DNA from: Propioniciclava sinopodophylli
GTDB lineage: Bacteria > Actinomycetota > Actinomycetes > Propionibacteriales > Propionibacteriaceae
Direction: 5' to 3'
DNA length: 64,000 bases
Assembly (NCBI RefSeq): GCF_004324755.1
Contig: NZ_SDMQ01000010.1
Coordinates: 1-64,000 of the forward strand
Each line of letters opens with the position of its first letter. Position 1 is the stretch's first letter. Under the pieces are notes generated by a model. It was not told the DNA's origin. It was given only the letters and a program-made list of their open reading frames with translations, and did not search any database. The position numbers were made by a program, and so were the translations under genes. Shown piece by piece: positions 13,336-23,135 of this stretch.

Positions 13336-14496
13336 TCAGCCCTTCTCGGAGAAGAGCTTCCCGTCCTTGTCGTAGCCGATGAACACGACCGCCTTGACCG
13401 GGTTGTGGTTCTCGTCCACGTCGAAGGTGCCGGTGACGCCGGCGAAGCCCTTGGTCTCGGCCAGGGCCCTTTGGACGCCCTCACCGGTCTTCTCGGTGGC
13501 GCGGGAGACGCCGTCGGCGACGAACTTCAAGGTGTCGTAGCCCAGGGCGTTGAACGCGTTCGGCTCGGCGGAGTACTTCGCCTCGAAGGCCTTGATGAAG
13601 TCCTGGACCTTCGGGTCCTGGTCGGCCGAGCTGTAGTGGTTGGTGAAGTACACGTCCTTCAGCTGCGCGCCGGCCTGCTCGGCGAGCACGGGGGAGTCGA
13701 AGCCGTCGCCACCGAGGATCGGCTGGGTGACGCCGAGGTCGCGGGCCTGCTTGATGGCCTTCCCGGCCTCGGTGTAGTAGCCGGGCAGGTAGATGACGTC
13801 GAACTGCTGGCCCTTGAACTTGGTCATGACCGCGTTGAAGTTGTCCGCGCCCTTGGCGTAGGCATCCTCCGACACGATCTCGCCGCCACCGGCGGTGAAG
13901 GTCTCGCGGAAGGCGTCCGCCAGGCCCTTGGAGTAGTCGCTGGAGCTGTCGCGAAGGATGACGGCCTTCTTGGCGCTGAACTTCTTCACCGCGTAGTTGG
14001 CGGCGGCGGTGCCCTGGAAGGAGTCGTTGAAGCAGGTGCGGAACGCGAACTGCTTGACGCCGTTGCCGTCCACCGTCACGTCGTCGGCGGTCGCGGAGCC
14101 GGAGACCACCGGGACCTTCTGGCGCTCGGCCACGGGGATCGTGGCCTTCATGCCGCCGGAGGTGGCCGGGCCGATGACCGTGATGACCTTGTCCTGCGTC
14201 ATGAGCTTGGTGGCCAGCGTGGTGGCCTCGGCGGCGTCCGACTTGGTGTCGTACTTGACGAGCTCGATCTTCTTGCCGTCGATGCCGCCGGCGGCGTTGA
14301 CCTCCTCGGCCGCCAGCTCGATGCCCTGAACGCTCGCCTCACCGTAGGTGGCGACGTCGCCGGACAGCTCGTAGTTCAAGCCGATCTTGATGGTGTCGCC
14401 CTGCGGTGCCTGGGCCGTGCCCGCGCCGCCCGAGCAGCCGGCGAGCATGGCGAGGCCAACCGTCGCGGCCGCGAGGCCGGTGAGGATGCGCTTCAT
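13336..14496 (-). CDS. livK: branched-chain amino acid-binding lipoprotein LivK
   Basis: 386 residues. The signal peptide MKRILTGLAAATVGLAMLAGC has a lipobox ending at Cys21, so the protein is predicted to be lipid-anchored outside the cytoplasmic membrane. The periplasmic-binding type I fold is shown by IKIGLNYELSGDVATYG, ELAAEEVNAAGGIDGKKIEL and VITVIGPATSGG. An AGGAGAAG ribosome site precedes the ATG. As first gene of livKHMGF it sets substrate specificity, probably branched-chain amino acids. Confidence 0.95.
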   Translation of the reverse strand: MKRILTGLAAATVGLAMLAGCSGGAGTAQAPQGDTIKIGLNYELSGDVATYGEASVQGIELAAEEVNAAGGIDGKKIELVKYDTKSDAAEATTLATKLMTQDKVITVIGPATSGGMKATIPVAERQKVPVVSGSATADDVTVDGNGVKQFAFRTCFNDSFQGTAAANYAVKKFSAKKAVILRDSSSDYSKGLADAFRETFTAGGGEIVSEDAYAKGADNFNAVMTKFKGQQFDVIYLPGYYTEAGKAIKQARDLGVTQPILGGDGFDSPVLAEQAGAQLKDVYFTNHYSSADQDPKVQDFIKAFEAKYSAEPNAFNALGYDTLKFVADGVSRATEKTGEGVQRALAETKGFAGVTGTFDVDENHNPVKAVVFIGYDKDGKLFSEKG

Positions 14497-16308: not shown

Positions 16309-17241
16309 ATGCGACGAATCGTGGTGTGCGGCGAGTCCCTCATCGACCTCGTGCCGACAGCTCCGGCCGGTGACACGCGGGCGTCCGGCTGGCGGGCGTT
16401 GTCGGCCGGCGGGCCGATGAACACGGCCATCGGGCTGGCCCGCCTGGGCAACCCCGTGGAGTTCCTCGGGCGCCTCGGCGACGACGCGTTCGCCGGGCAG
16501 TTGCGCCGCCACCTGGCCGCCAACGGCGTGGGCACCGCCCTGGCCGTGGACGCCCCGCAGCCGACCTCGCTGGCCGTGGTCAGCCTCGACGAGGCGGGCA
16601 AGGCGTCCTACACCTTCCACTTCGCGGGCACGGCCAACTTCGGCTGGCGCGCGGACGAACTCCCGGAGCTGGGGGCCGACGACTGGCTGCACGTCGCCTC
16701 GCTGGTGACGGTGGTCGGCCCCGGCCGCACCGCCCTGCTGGATTGGGTGCGCGCCGGGTCGGGGCCCCTGTCGCTGGACGTGAACGTCCGGCCCACCGTC
16801 CTGCCCGACCTGGCGGCGTACTGGGCGCTGGTCGAGCCGTGGCTCGTCGCGGTCGGGCAGCGGGGTGGCCTGGTCAAGGGCTCGGACGAAGACTTCGAGC
16901 TGTTGGCGGGGGCGTCCGGCCTGCCCACCGACCCCGAGGCACTGGTGGTGGCGCTGAGGGAGCGCTACGGCGCGACGTGGGCCGTGGTCACCCGGGGGCC
17001 CGACGGCGCGGTGGCGGCGGGTCCCGAGGGCGTGGCGTCCGTGCCGAGCCCGTCGGTGGCCCTGGTCGACACGATCGGGGCTGGCGACACGTTCATGGCC
17101 GGGATGCTGGACGCCCTCGTCGTGGCGGGCCTGCCGCTGGCGGACGCCCTGCGCCGCGGGGCCGCGGCCGCGGCGCTGGTGTGCGAGCGCGAGGGGGCCG
17201 ACCCGCCGACCCGCGCCGAGCTGGACGCGGCGCTGGGCTGA
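16309..17241 (+). CDS. PfkB-family carbohydrate kinase (fructokinase-like)
   Basis: 310 residues of the ribokinase/PfkB fold. The N-terminal VVCGESLIDLVP and AGGPMNTAIGLARLG bind sugar, and the C-terminal VDTIGAGDTFMAGMLDAL is PfkB signature 2, with the catalytic Asp and anion hole. Closest in look to fructokinases, though sugar specificity cannot be read from sequence. In-frame sequence upstream belongs to a shadow frame. The gene is followed by the leuS leader region. Confidence 0.88.
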   Translation: MRRIVVCGESLIDLVPTAPAGDTRASGWRALSAGGPMNTAIGLARLGNPVEFLGRLGDDAFAGQLRRHLAANGVGTALAVDAPQPTSLAVVSLDEAGKASYTFHFAGTANFGWRADELPELGADDWLHVASLVTVVGPGRTALLDWVRAGSGPLSLDVNVRPTVLPDLAAYWALVEPWLVAVGQRGGLVKGSDEDFELLAGASGLPTDPEALVVALRERYGATWAVVTRGPDGAVAAGPEGVASVPSPSVALVDTIGAGDTFMAGMLDALVVAGLPLADALRRGAAAAALVCEREGADPPTRAELDAALG

Positions 17242-17255
17242 AGGGTCGGGTGGTC

Positions 17256-17261
17256 TATGCT
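17256..17261 (+). promoter_or_regulatory. -10 hexamer TATGCT for the leuS leader transcript
   Basis: TATGCT is followed by 7 bases and the ATG of the leader peptide at 17269, so the leuS transcript is predicted to begin at the leader's own start codon. No convincing -35 box is visible. Confidence 0.6.
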
Positions 17262-17268
17262 GGCGCGC

Positions 17269-17304
17269 ATGGAGCGCACCACGAGCCAGCGACTTCTTGG
17301 CTAG
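17269..17304 (+). CDS. leuS leader peptide
   Basis: An 11-residue mini-ORF, MERTTSQRLLG, ending in TAG. The two Leu residues are encoded by CTT-CTT, codons that are rare in the surrounding genes, which use CTG and CTC almost exclusively. A leaderless promoter precedes it and an intrinsic terminator follows before leuS. This is the layout of ribosome-mediated attenuation: shortage of charged tRNA-Leu would stall the ribosome at residues 9-10. The peptide itself probably has no function after synthesis. Confidence 0.75.
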   Translation: MERTTSQRLLG

Positions 17305-17329
17305 CCGCGCACCCCACCCGGTGACGCGG
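17305..17329 (+). promoter_or_regulatory. leuS leader hairpin 1 (competes with antiterminator)
   Basis: CCGCG (17305-17309) pairs with CGCGG (17325-17329), and ACC (17311-17313) with GGT (17320-17322). Its 5' arm starts at the base after the leader stop, where a ribosome stalled on the CTT codons would cover it. The alternative pairing CCGGT (17318-17322) with ACCGG (17347-17351) reaches into the terminator loop. This is a by-eye model. Confidence 0.45.
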
Positions 17330-17330
17330 C

Positions 17331-17367
17331 GCCCCTGACATGCCCAACCGGCACGCAGGGGCTTTTT
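17331..17367 (+). terminator. intrinsic terminator (attenuator) in the leuS leader
   Basis: GCCCCTG (17331-17337) pairs with CAGGGGC (17356-17362) and is followed at once by five T residues (17363-17367). An inner TGCC/GGCA stem (17341-17344 with 17350-17353) extends the hairpin. It is the only hairpin-plus-T-run in the window that looks like a classic Rho-independent terminator, and it lies between the leader peptide and leuS, not after a gene. Confidence 0.82.
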
Positions 17368-17409: not shown

Positions 17410-19878
<2,469 letters not shown>

Positions 19879-19996: not shown

Positions 19997-20821
19997 ATGC
20001 GCCCGCTGAGTCCCCGTCCCGGCCAAGGCGACGTCGTGCGCGCCCGGCTGGCGGCCCTGGCCGCCGAGCTGGGCCCGGCACCGTCGCCCGACGGGGTGCC
20101 ACCCGCCGAGGTTCCCGGGGACGGATCCGCCGAGGGCTTGCCTCCGACGGTCCCTGAGGCGGCGCCCGCCCGTGCGATCGACCGGGGCTCAGTGCTGCGC
20201 CGTGGGGTGGAGTTCGGCCGGGCGCACGCGGCGGTCATCGGCGTGATCGGGCTGGTCGCGCTGCTCGGCGCGGTCTGGGGCATTACGCAGGCGCGGACCG
20301 TGCCGGTGGCCGTGGCTGCGGCTACGCCCGTGCCGGCCTCAGTGGCGCCCACGCCGACGCCGACGTCCACCCCCGAGCCGCTCCGAGTCCACGTGCTCGG
20401 GGAAGTGGCGCGACCCGGCGTCGTCCGGCTGCCGCCCGGCTCGCGGGTCGAGGACGCGATTGCGGCGGCGGGCGGGCTGCTGCCCGACGCGCGTCCCGGC
20501 GACCTCAACCTCGCCGCCGTGGTGGCGGACGGCGCCCAGGTCTGGGTCGGGGGGCGGGCCGAACCGGGCGGCGAGGTGCGCGGGTCGCAGCCCTCGGGTG
20601 CCGCGTCGGCGGGCGGCGGCGGGCCGGGCTCTGACCGCCTCGACCTCAATACCGCGACTCTCGACCAGCTGGACGCCCTCCCCGGTGTCGGCCCGGTGAC
20701 CGCGCAGGCGATCCTCGCCCGGCGCGGGGACGGGCGTTTCACCCGGGTGGAGGAGTTGCTGGAAGTGGACGGCATCGGCCAGAAGACGTTCGAGCGGATC
20801 GAGCCGCATGTCCGGGTCTGA
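19997..20821 (+). CDS. comEA: ComEA-type DNA-binding competence protein
   Basis: 274 residues. A cytoplasmic, Pro-rich N-terminus is followed by one membrane helix (about 72-92, AAVIGVIGLVALLGAVWGI), an SLBB domain (about 132-165, RVHVLGEVARPGVVRLPPGS) and two helix-hairpin-helix motifs (about 214-274, LNTATLDQLDALPGVGPVTA). In naturally transformable bacteria ComEA binds incoming double-stranded DNA outside the membrane. It overlaps comEC by 14 bases. ComEA-ComEC remain common in actinomycetes with no shown competence, so uptake activity is inferred. Confidence 0.92.
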   Translation: MRPLSPRPGQGDVVRARLAALAAELGPAPSPDGVPPAEVPGDGSAEGLPPTVPEAAPARAIDRGSVLRRGVEFGRAHAAVIGVIGLVALLGAVWGITQARTVPVAVAAATPVPASVAPTPTPTSTPEPLRVHVLGEVARPGVVRLPPGSRVEDAIAAAGGLLPDARPGDLNLAAVVADGAQVWVGGRAEPGGEVRGSQPSGAASAGGGGPGSDRLDLNTATLDQLDALPGVGPVTAQAILARRGDGRFTRVEELLEVDGIGQKTFERIEPHVRV

Positions 20822-23135
20822 ACCGGAGCCGGATGACCGGGGCGCCGGCCGCATGCTGGCGCTCGGGGCCACCGCATGGGCGGCGATGGGGTTCGCGACG
20901 GCCGACGACCCGCGCGTGTTGGGCGTGGTGGCCGCGGTGACGGGACTGGTGGCGATCGCGGCGTGGCGGCGGACGAACTGGTTCCTCGCATCAATGGCGA
21001 CGGTGGCGGCCGTCTGCGTGGTGGTGGGAGGCGCCCGGGCCGCCGCGGTGGCATCCGACCCGGTGACGGAGCTCACAGCGCAGCGCGCCACGGGTGTGGT
21101 GGAGGTGCGGGTCTCGGGCGCCGGTCGGTGGTGGGCCCCGGCGGGTCCGCGCCCGGGGATGTGGCGCGGGACGGCCGAGCTGGTCTCGGTCGATGCCCGC
21201 GGCGGGGCGTGGCGGAGCGGTGCTCCGGTGCAGGTGGTCGCGACGGGCGAGGTGGGGCTGGCCTGGGCGGCGGTCCCGATGGGAGCTACGGTGCGGGCGA
21301 CCGTGCGGTTCGGCGCAGCCGACGCGGGCTCGGGCCTGTTCGCGGAGCTGCGCGCCCGGGAGTCTCCTGTGGTGGTCGCGGAGCCGGACGTGTTGAACCA
21401 CATGGTCGGGTCGCTGCGGCGTGGGCTGGTGGAGGCCTGCACGCCGCTGTGGCCGGACGCCCGCGCCCTCGTGCCGGCGCTCGTCGTGGGGGACACGTCC
21501 GCGATGCCGGACGACCTGCGCGAGCGGTTCGTGGTCACCGGTCTCACCCACCTGACCGCCGTCAGCGGCTCGAACCTCACGTTGCTCCTGGGCTTCCTCC
21601 GAGCGTTCGCCGTGGGCTGCGGCGTACGCGGGCGCTGGCTGCTCGGCCTGCAGGTGGGCGGCGTGGCCGGGTTCGTGCTTCTCTGCCTGGGCGAACCCAG
21701 CGTGCTGCGGGCCGCGGCCATGGGGCTGGTCGGCCTGGCGGCGCTCGGCCGGGCTGGCCGGGGGCGACACGGGCTGCGCTTCCTGGGCGTGGCGGTGCTG
21801 GCGGTCGTGCTGGCGGAGCCGGCGATGTCCCGGTCGCTGGGGTTCGCGCTGTCGGTCCTGGCCACGTTCGGCCTGCTGCGGTGGGCGGGCGCGTGGGCGG
21901 ACCTGCTGGCCCGCTGGCTGCCGCGCTGGTGCGCCGAGACGCTGGCCGTCCCGCTGGCCGCCCAGGTCGCCACCGAGCCGGTCGTGGTGGTCCTGTCGGG
22001 GCAGGTCAGCGTCGTGTCCGTGCTGGCCAACCTGGTGGCGGGCCCGATGGTGGGCCCCGCGACCGTGCTCGGCCTGATCACCACGTTGGTCGCCCCGGTG
22101 GTCGGGTCCCTCGCGGTGGCTCCTGCCTGGGCGGCTGGCTGGTTCGCCCAGGGCATCGCCTGGACGGCACGGCTCGGGGAGGCCCTCCCCGGTGCGGCCG
22201 TGCCGTGGCCGGCCTCGGCGGTGGCGGTCGGCGTCGTGGTGCTCGGGTGCGGGGTGCTGGTGCTGCTGGCGCCGGTGGTGCTGCCCCGGCGCTGGCTCTT
22301 CCTCGGGCTGGCGGGGCTGGTCCTGCTTGGGCTGGGGCGGACGCCCACGCCGCCGGGCTGGCCGCCGCGGGGTTGGGCGGTTGCCTCCTGTGACGTGGGG
22401 CAGGGGGACGCCACCGTGCTGGCGGCGGGCCCCGGCCAGGCGGTCGTGGTGGACACCGGCCCCGATCCGGCGCCGCTCTCCCGGTGCCTGGCCCAGCTCG
22501 GGGTCTCCCGGGTGCCGGTGGTGGTGCTGACACACCTGCACGCCGACCACGTCGGCGGTGCGGACGCCCTCGCGGGCCTCGGGGTGGACCTGCTGGTGAC
22601 CTCGGGCGTCCGGACCCCGGAGGCCGCCCACGCCCGCGCCGTCGCGGTCCTCGCCCCGGCCCAGCACGTGGAGGCCGGGCCCGGCTCGGCCTGGCAGATC
22701 GGTGACGTGCGACTGGAAGTGCTGGCCGCCCCGGCGCTGGGCCGCGACCTGGGCGGGGAGGGGGAGTCCTCGGCGGAGAACGACGCGTCGCTGTTGCTGC
22801 GCGCCGACGTGGCGGGCGTCTCGGTGTTGCTGGCGGGCGACGCGGAGGAGGGCGCGCAGACCCGCCACCTGGGGCTGCGCGGGGCGCTCGACGTAGATGT
22901 CCTGCTGGTGCCGCACCACGGGTCGGGGCGGCACAGCCCGGCGTTCGTGGCCGCCTCCCGCCCGGACGTGGCGCTGGTCAGCGTGGGGGAGGGCAACGAC
23001 TACGGGCACCCGGCGGCTCGGACGCTGGCGTCCGTCAACGCGACGGGGGCGGCCACCTTCCGCACCGATGAGCGCGGGTCGATCACCGTGGCGCGCGCTC
23101 CGGACGGCGGGCTGGCCGTCACCACCCAGCGGTGA
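20808..23135 (+). CDS. comEC: ComEC/Rec2 DNA-uptake channel
   Basis: 775 residues. N-terminal membrane helices flank an OB-like DUF4131 region. The competence domain (about 210-490) holds the LVVGDTSAMPDDLRERFVVT and GLTHLTAVSGSNL motifs, and a C-terminal metallo-beta-lactamase domain carries THLHADHVGGAD (about 575-586), LLAGDAE and VPHHGS. It forms the channel that brings single-stranded DNA into the cell, the MBL domain being the proposed strand-degrading nuclease. The metal ligands appear intact. Confidence 0.93.
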   Translation: MSGSEPEPDDRGAGRMLALGATAWAAMGFATADDPRVLGVVAAVTGLVAIAAWRRTNWFLASMATVAAVCVVVGGARAAAVASDPVTELTAQRATGVVEVRVSGAGRWWAPAGPRPGMWRGTAELVSVDARGGAWRSGAPVQVVATGEVGLAWAAVPMGATVRATVRFGAADAGSGLFAELRARESPVVVAEPDVLNHMVGSLRRGLVEACTPLWPDARALVPALVVGDTSAMPDDLRERFVVTGLTHLTAVSGSNLTLLLGFLRAFAVGCGVRGRWLLGLQVGGVAGFVLLCLGEPSVLRAAAMGLVGLAALGRAGRGRHGLRFLGVAVLAVVLAEPAMSRSLGFALSVLATFGLLRWAGAWADLLARWLPRWCAETLAVPLAAQVATEPVVVVLSGQVSVVSVLANLVAGPMVGPATVLGLITTLVAPVVGSLAVAPAWAAGWFAQGIAWTARLGEALPGAAVPWPASAVAVGVVVLGCGVLVLLAPVVLPRRWLFLGLAGLVLLGLGRTPTPPGWPPRGWAVASCDVGQGDATVLAAGPGQAVVVDTGPDPAPLSRCLAQLGVSRVPVVVLTHLHADHVGGADALAGLGVDLLVTSGVRTPEAAHARAVAVLAPAQHVEAGPGSAWQIGDVRLEVLAAPALGRDLGGEGESSAENDASLLLRADVAGVSVLLAGDAEEGAQTRHLGLRGALDVDVLLVPHHGSGRHSPAFVAASRPDVALVSVGEGNDYGHPAARTLASVNATGAATFRTDERGSITVARAPDGGLAVTTQR

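Follow-up and report, generated by a model that had tools for sequence, protein, structure and literature searches.

Does the short sequence in front of leuS act as a leader-peptide attenuator and, if so, what would keep its terminator from forming? The window, that is, the whole stretch of 64,000 nucleotides analyzed here, belongs to a genome of 3.07 Mb. It encodes a leucyl-tRNA synthetase (LeuS) of 822 amino acids at 17410-19878 on the forward strand, identified with Pfam, and the start at 17410 is preceded by GAGGAG. The closest named LeuS proteins, about 70-74% identical, are from Microlunatus and other Propionibacteriaceae, which very probably places the window in this family. An initial annotation placed an attenuator before this putative target gene, and every part it listed (the -10 box, the mini-ORF, CTT CTT, both hairpins, and T5) was found at its assigned position.

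The leuS leader and its parts

All parts of the leader are on the forward strand. A -10 box, TATGCT, is read at 17256-17261, and inspection by eye of the sequence upstream of it gave no convincing -35 element. An ATG follows 7 nt downstream, a spacing consistent with a leaderless transcript. This ATG (17269-17271) opens a leader ORF of 11 codons (17269-17304), probably translated without a leader, which occupies the same position in genus relatives. It reads ATG GAG CGC ACC ACG AGC CAG CGA CTT CTT GGC TAG and encodes MERTTSQRLLG. The two regulatory leucine codons, CTT CTT, lie at 17293-17298, and the CTT bias of the last leucine codon across leaders marks the second as the probable stall codon. 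CTT is rare locally, accounting for 2 of the 178 leucine codons in leuS and the ORFs at 19997-20821 and 20808-23135.

Two hairpins follow. The first, P1 (17304-17330), pairs 17304-17313 with 17320-17330 and is backed by folding and by covariation in an alignment of leaders (A1). Its pairs are 17304-17309/17325-17330 and 17310-17313/17320-17323, with A17324 bulged, and its first base is the G of the stop codon. The second is an intrinsic terminator (17331-17367), recognized from sequence, folds, and conservation. Its outer stem is 17331-17337/17356-17362 and its inner stem 17341-17344/17350-17353. The hairpin (17331-17362) abuts P1 with zero gap and is followed by five T (17363-17367).

Across both strands of the 64 kb, a leaderless Leu-Leu mini-ORF followed by a terminator occurs once, as the leuS leader. 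None of 40 sequences of the same length simulated with a first-order Markov model contained it, an estimate of chance based on this window and on simulated sequence. About 3 kb upstream of leuS, a reverse-strand ORF (13336-14496) encodes a lipoprotein-like substrate-binding protein of an ABC transporter, judged by eye to be of the type for branched-chain amino acids.

Conservation before leuS

We collected leuS loci with LeuS from relatives and from named genomes. The initial annotation had tied its proposal to the presence of the mini-ORF and terminator in close relatives, and the element is carried by 9/9 genus members with the same leuS type (one, G002, from split contigs). Aligned leuS leaders from relatives conserve the mini-ORF and the CTT codons and show compensatory changes in P1. 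The genus peptides include MDRTTSQRLLG, MDRSIDQRLLG, MDHAVSRSRLLG, and MACFEHTARLLR. Across several actinobacterial orders, a mechanical filter finds the same layout before 77 of 127 leuS genes, with a -10 to ATG spacing of 6-7 nt in 75 of these 77 leaders. In the same family, the search for the element upstream of leuS came up empty in many cases, for example in Cutibacterium namnetense and Tessaracoccus OS52, which suggests repeated loss or replacement.

Three further genus members (G001, G011, and G012) have no element before leuS. Their LeuS proteins are only about 45-52% identical and represent another LeuS type. This pattern suggests that leuS has been replaced in part of the genus. Five genomes of genus g26 (G038, G041, G044, G053, and G056) have two neighboring LeuS-like genes, and the covariance model described below finds a separate leader before each.

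A covariance model, R1, was trained on the 30 diverse leaders of alignment A1, none of them from Streptomyces. In the window's genome it has one match, at 17290-17366 (E 1e-8). Across the class it matches 53 of 118 genomes, nearly always once each, and it adds leaders that the mechanical filter missed, including those of Actinomadura and Sphaerisporangium. As judged by tblastn with the window's LeuS, 47 of the 50 fetched matches directly precede leuS; a few of the 50 come from genomes represented in the training set. One strong match in another class of the phylum is also located before leuS. A weak match in another class (L190) has leucine codons immediately followed by a hairpin and a terminator, with no LeuS match behind it. 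Rfam gave no credible match in the leader region, and specifically no T-box at the leader, whether at the gathering score or with E relaxed to 10. R1 thus provides a covariance model for an element with no Rfam match found.

The other three fetched matches (L175, L179, and L180) are all weak. Behind L175 and L179 the gene is ilvB, encoding the acetolactate synthase large subunit (read from the translation), and these leaders contain Ile, Leu, and Val codons; the leader of L180 is of the same kind. This shared layout suggests that leuS and ilvB have one common attenuator design. Two more weak matches, L191 and L192, have the same layout with Ile, Leu, and Val codons.

The last leucine codon and hairpin P1

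The last leucine codon is CTT in 104 of 114 anchored leaders, while the preceding ones mix CTC, CTG, and CTT. Overall, CTT makes up 65 of 120 leader leucine codons, compared with 84 of 2861 (2.9%) in the leuS coding sequences at these loci (Fisher p 4e-58, indicative only since the loci are related). The distance from the last leucine codon to P1 is a constant 5 nt, whether the stop codon falls before or after the 5' arm of P1, and GCC occupies nucleotides 6-8 past this codon in 57/57 representatives. The stop codon itself begins anywhere from 3 to 30 nt past the last leucine codon (3 nt in 27 representatives, at least 12 in 30). A ribosome protects about 10-12 nt downstream of the codon in its A site. 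Waiting at the last CTT, it would thus cover about the first five or six bases of P1, and at the preceding codon only two or three, which would fit selection on the last codon. Neither the CTT rule nor the class-wide spread was described in the papers covered by a limited literature search.

In P1, six of nine pairs vary on both sides. In the alignment, both sides have changed in 35 cells; shuffles give 11.6, and sliding the partner never gives more than 14. On this comparative evidence, the compensatory changes establish that P1 is a genuine helix. In the terminator, most pairs are C-G and do not vary across leaders.

One alternative gives P1 the main role of pausing polymerase in step with the leading ribosome, like the 1:2 hairpin of trp leaders. 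The gap between P1 and the terminator is 0-2 nt in 57/57 representatives, and a TG lies about 8-12 nt 3' of P1 in 82% of them versus 37% of shuffles, a comparison that ignores phylogeny. The distance from P1 to this TG resembles that seen at known hairpin pauses. The TG is possibly a polymerase pause site, but it may also be kept as a preference of the terminator loop. A main role in pausing is doubtful, and it would be compatible with attenuation rather than exclusive of it.

A second alternative holds that the terminator merely ends the transcript of the upstream carbohydrate kinase and that the mini-ORF is accidental. The kinase ORF does end at 17241, 90 nt 5' of the terminator. However, the upstream sequence differs among genus relatives while the element stays with leuS, and the covariation of P1 and the CTT bias also count against this explanation. 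It is very improbable.

The search for an antiterminator

In a classical three-state attenuator, an alternative helix would form when the 5' arm of P1 is occupied. The initial annotation had drawn such a helix between CCGGT and ACCGG. The full candidate (17318-17351), obtained from folds and not above chance, pairs CCGGT (17318-17322) with ACCGG (17347-17351), extended by GGCG (17328-17331) with TGCC (17341-17344). With the 5' arm of P1 masked and the 3' arm of the terminator not yet made, the window folds into exactly this structure at -10.2 kcal/mol. This energy is weaker than that of dinucleotide shuffles (z +0.9), so that the proposed helix exists and folds in the window but is no stronger than in shuffled sequence. 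Nor is it conserved: CCGGT:ACCGG is complete in the window alone and reduced to 4 bp in the nearest relative. Loop-terminator pairing in the window and three relatives leans towards pairing (z -1 to -2), but the combined genus test is not significant (p 0.08, on non-independent sequences) and complementarity between loop and terminator in the 57 representatives is at chance. A three-state switch with this ON structure is unlikely.

Other helices were also considered. An anchored systematic search for alternatives left P1 as the sole covarying helix of the leader. Pairing of the leucine codon run with the 3' arm of the terminator is frequent, but shows no covariation and is at chance. Pairing of the upstream part of the ORF, or of downstream sequence, with the 3' arm of P1 is at or near chance. 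Extension of P1 by GGC (17299-17301) with the first GCC of the terminator appears in window folds, but it overlaps by no more than 3 nt and does not hold generally.

In the window the probability of the terminator stays near 1 at every ribosome position tried, and with the full hairpin present it dominates in most leaders under any masking, several rows being unreliable where the helix was parsed as a single pair. With no selected alternative helix and a dominant terminator, antitermination must be kinetic and clade-specific if it works by pairing, and must otherwise work by other means. The comparative data reveal no textbook antiterminator.

Proposed mechanism

Conservation, P1 covariation, CTT bias, and fixed spacing support the reading with which the initial annotation began: the element is most probably a ribosome-mediated transcription attenuator of leuS. 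The points against it are the lack of a conserved antiterminator and the many family relatives without the element. The leader is very probably functional, and very probably raises LeuS when charged tRNA-Leu is short.

In the proposed pathway, the RNA would start at or beside the leader ATG, as the -10 spacing implies. A ribosome would translate the 11-codon leader as P1 and, after it, the terminator are being transcribed. When Leu-tRNA is ample, the ribosome would finish and leave, P1 and the terminator would form, and most transcripts would end at 17363-17367. Under a shortage of charged tRNA-Leu, the ribosome would stall at the second of the rare CTT codons. With its leading edge over the start of the P1 5' arm, it would hold P1 open, and polymerase would read through into leuS. 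The terminator may be blocked by weak, clade-specific pairings that act kinetically, between the freed 3' arm and loop of P1 and the 5' arm of the terminator.

A more radical version is a class-wide, two-hairpin attenuator with no dedicated antiterminator. Here, a stall at the near-invariant CTT, 5 nt before P1, would open P1, and termination would be controlled by lost pausing or by loss of the hairpin stack beside the terminator, with no alternative stem. We regard this version as tentative and rather improbable.

Relation to known attenuators

In enterobacterial trp-type attenuators, a ribosome stalled on cognate codons decides between structures. The leuS leader differs in having no conserved 2:3 antiterminator, in its probable leaderless start, and in its target, a synthetase gene. 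A 2010 comparative paper by Lopatovskaya and others on aminoacyl-tRNA operons may list more cases.

Related leaders precede other actinobacterial genes. The ilvB leaders, including the Corynebacterium ilvB-II motif, likewise have a uORF with branched-chain codons, a P1, and a terminator P2, but carry Ile, Val, and Leu codons and precede another gene (PMC10272879). The antiterminator proposed for ilvB-II, the P1 loop paired with the 3' shoulder of the terminator (PMC10272879), finds no support in the leuS leaders. Experiments cited in PMC1262725, in which codon changes in the Streptomyces coelicolor ilvB leader had no effect on regulation, count against the attenuator reading. The LEU element before leuA is also an actinobacterial leader ORF with leucine codons; unlike the leuS leader, it has a pseudoknot, no terminator, and another gene downstream (PMC1262725).

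The closest system is leuL2-leuS of Streptomyces. Classical attenuators before leuS were predicted in 2005 in S. avermitilis and S. coelicolor, and set against the T-boxes of Firmicutes (PMC1262725). RNA-seq in S. lividans found leuL2 before leuS to be leaderless, encoding MRAVRLLLSEPR, with a hairpin and U-run (PMC8079986). The leader described here shares the gene, the short ORF with tandem leucine codons, and the hairpin followed by a U-run terminator; the leaderless start is reported there and predicted here. Leaders encoding MRAVRLLLSEPR match R1 with E about 1e-11 in class genomes of 7-10 Mb (group f20), which we take to be Streptomyces because the peptide is that of leuL2. A model built without Streptomyces thus recovers the identical peptide, pointing to a shared sequence-structure pattern. 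The present leader differs in its order, in its peptide MERTTSQRLLG, in a stop codon before the 5' arm of P1 (behind it in Streptomyces), and in an extended inner terminator stem. The initial annotation had called attenuation unusual for leuS, which holds against T-boxes, but not within actinobacteria, where it is published in Streptomyces and is common across the class, with R1 matches in 53/118 genomes. The leuS attenuator of Streptomyces was thus already known; the absence of a visible antiterminator, the breadth, the covarying P1, and the CTT rule are new. Together they extend a regulator described in Streptomyces to many actinobacterial orders and suggest a design rule precise enough to test: the spacing between a rare CTT and a covarying hairpin is constant.
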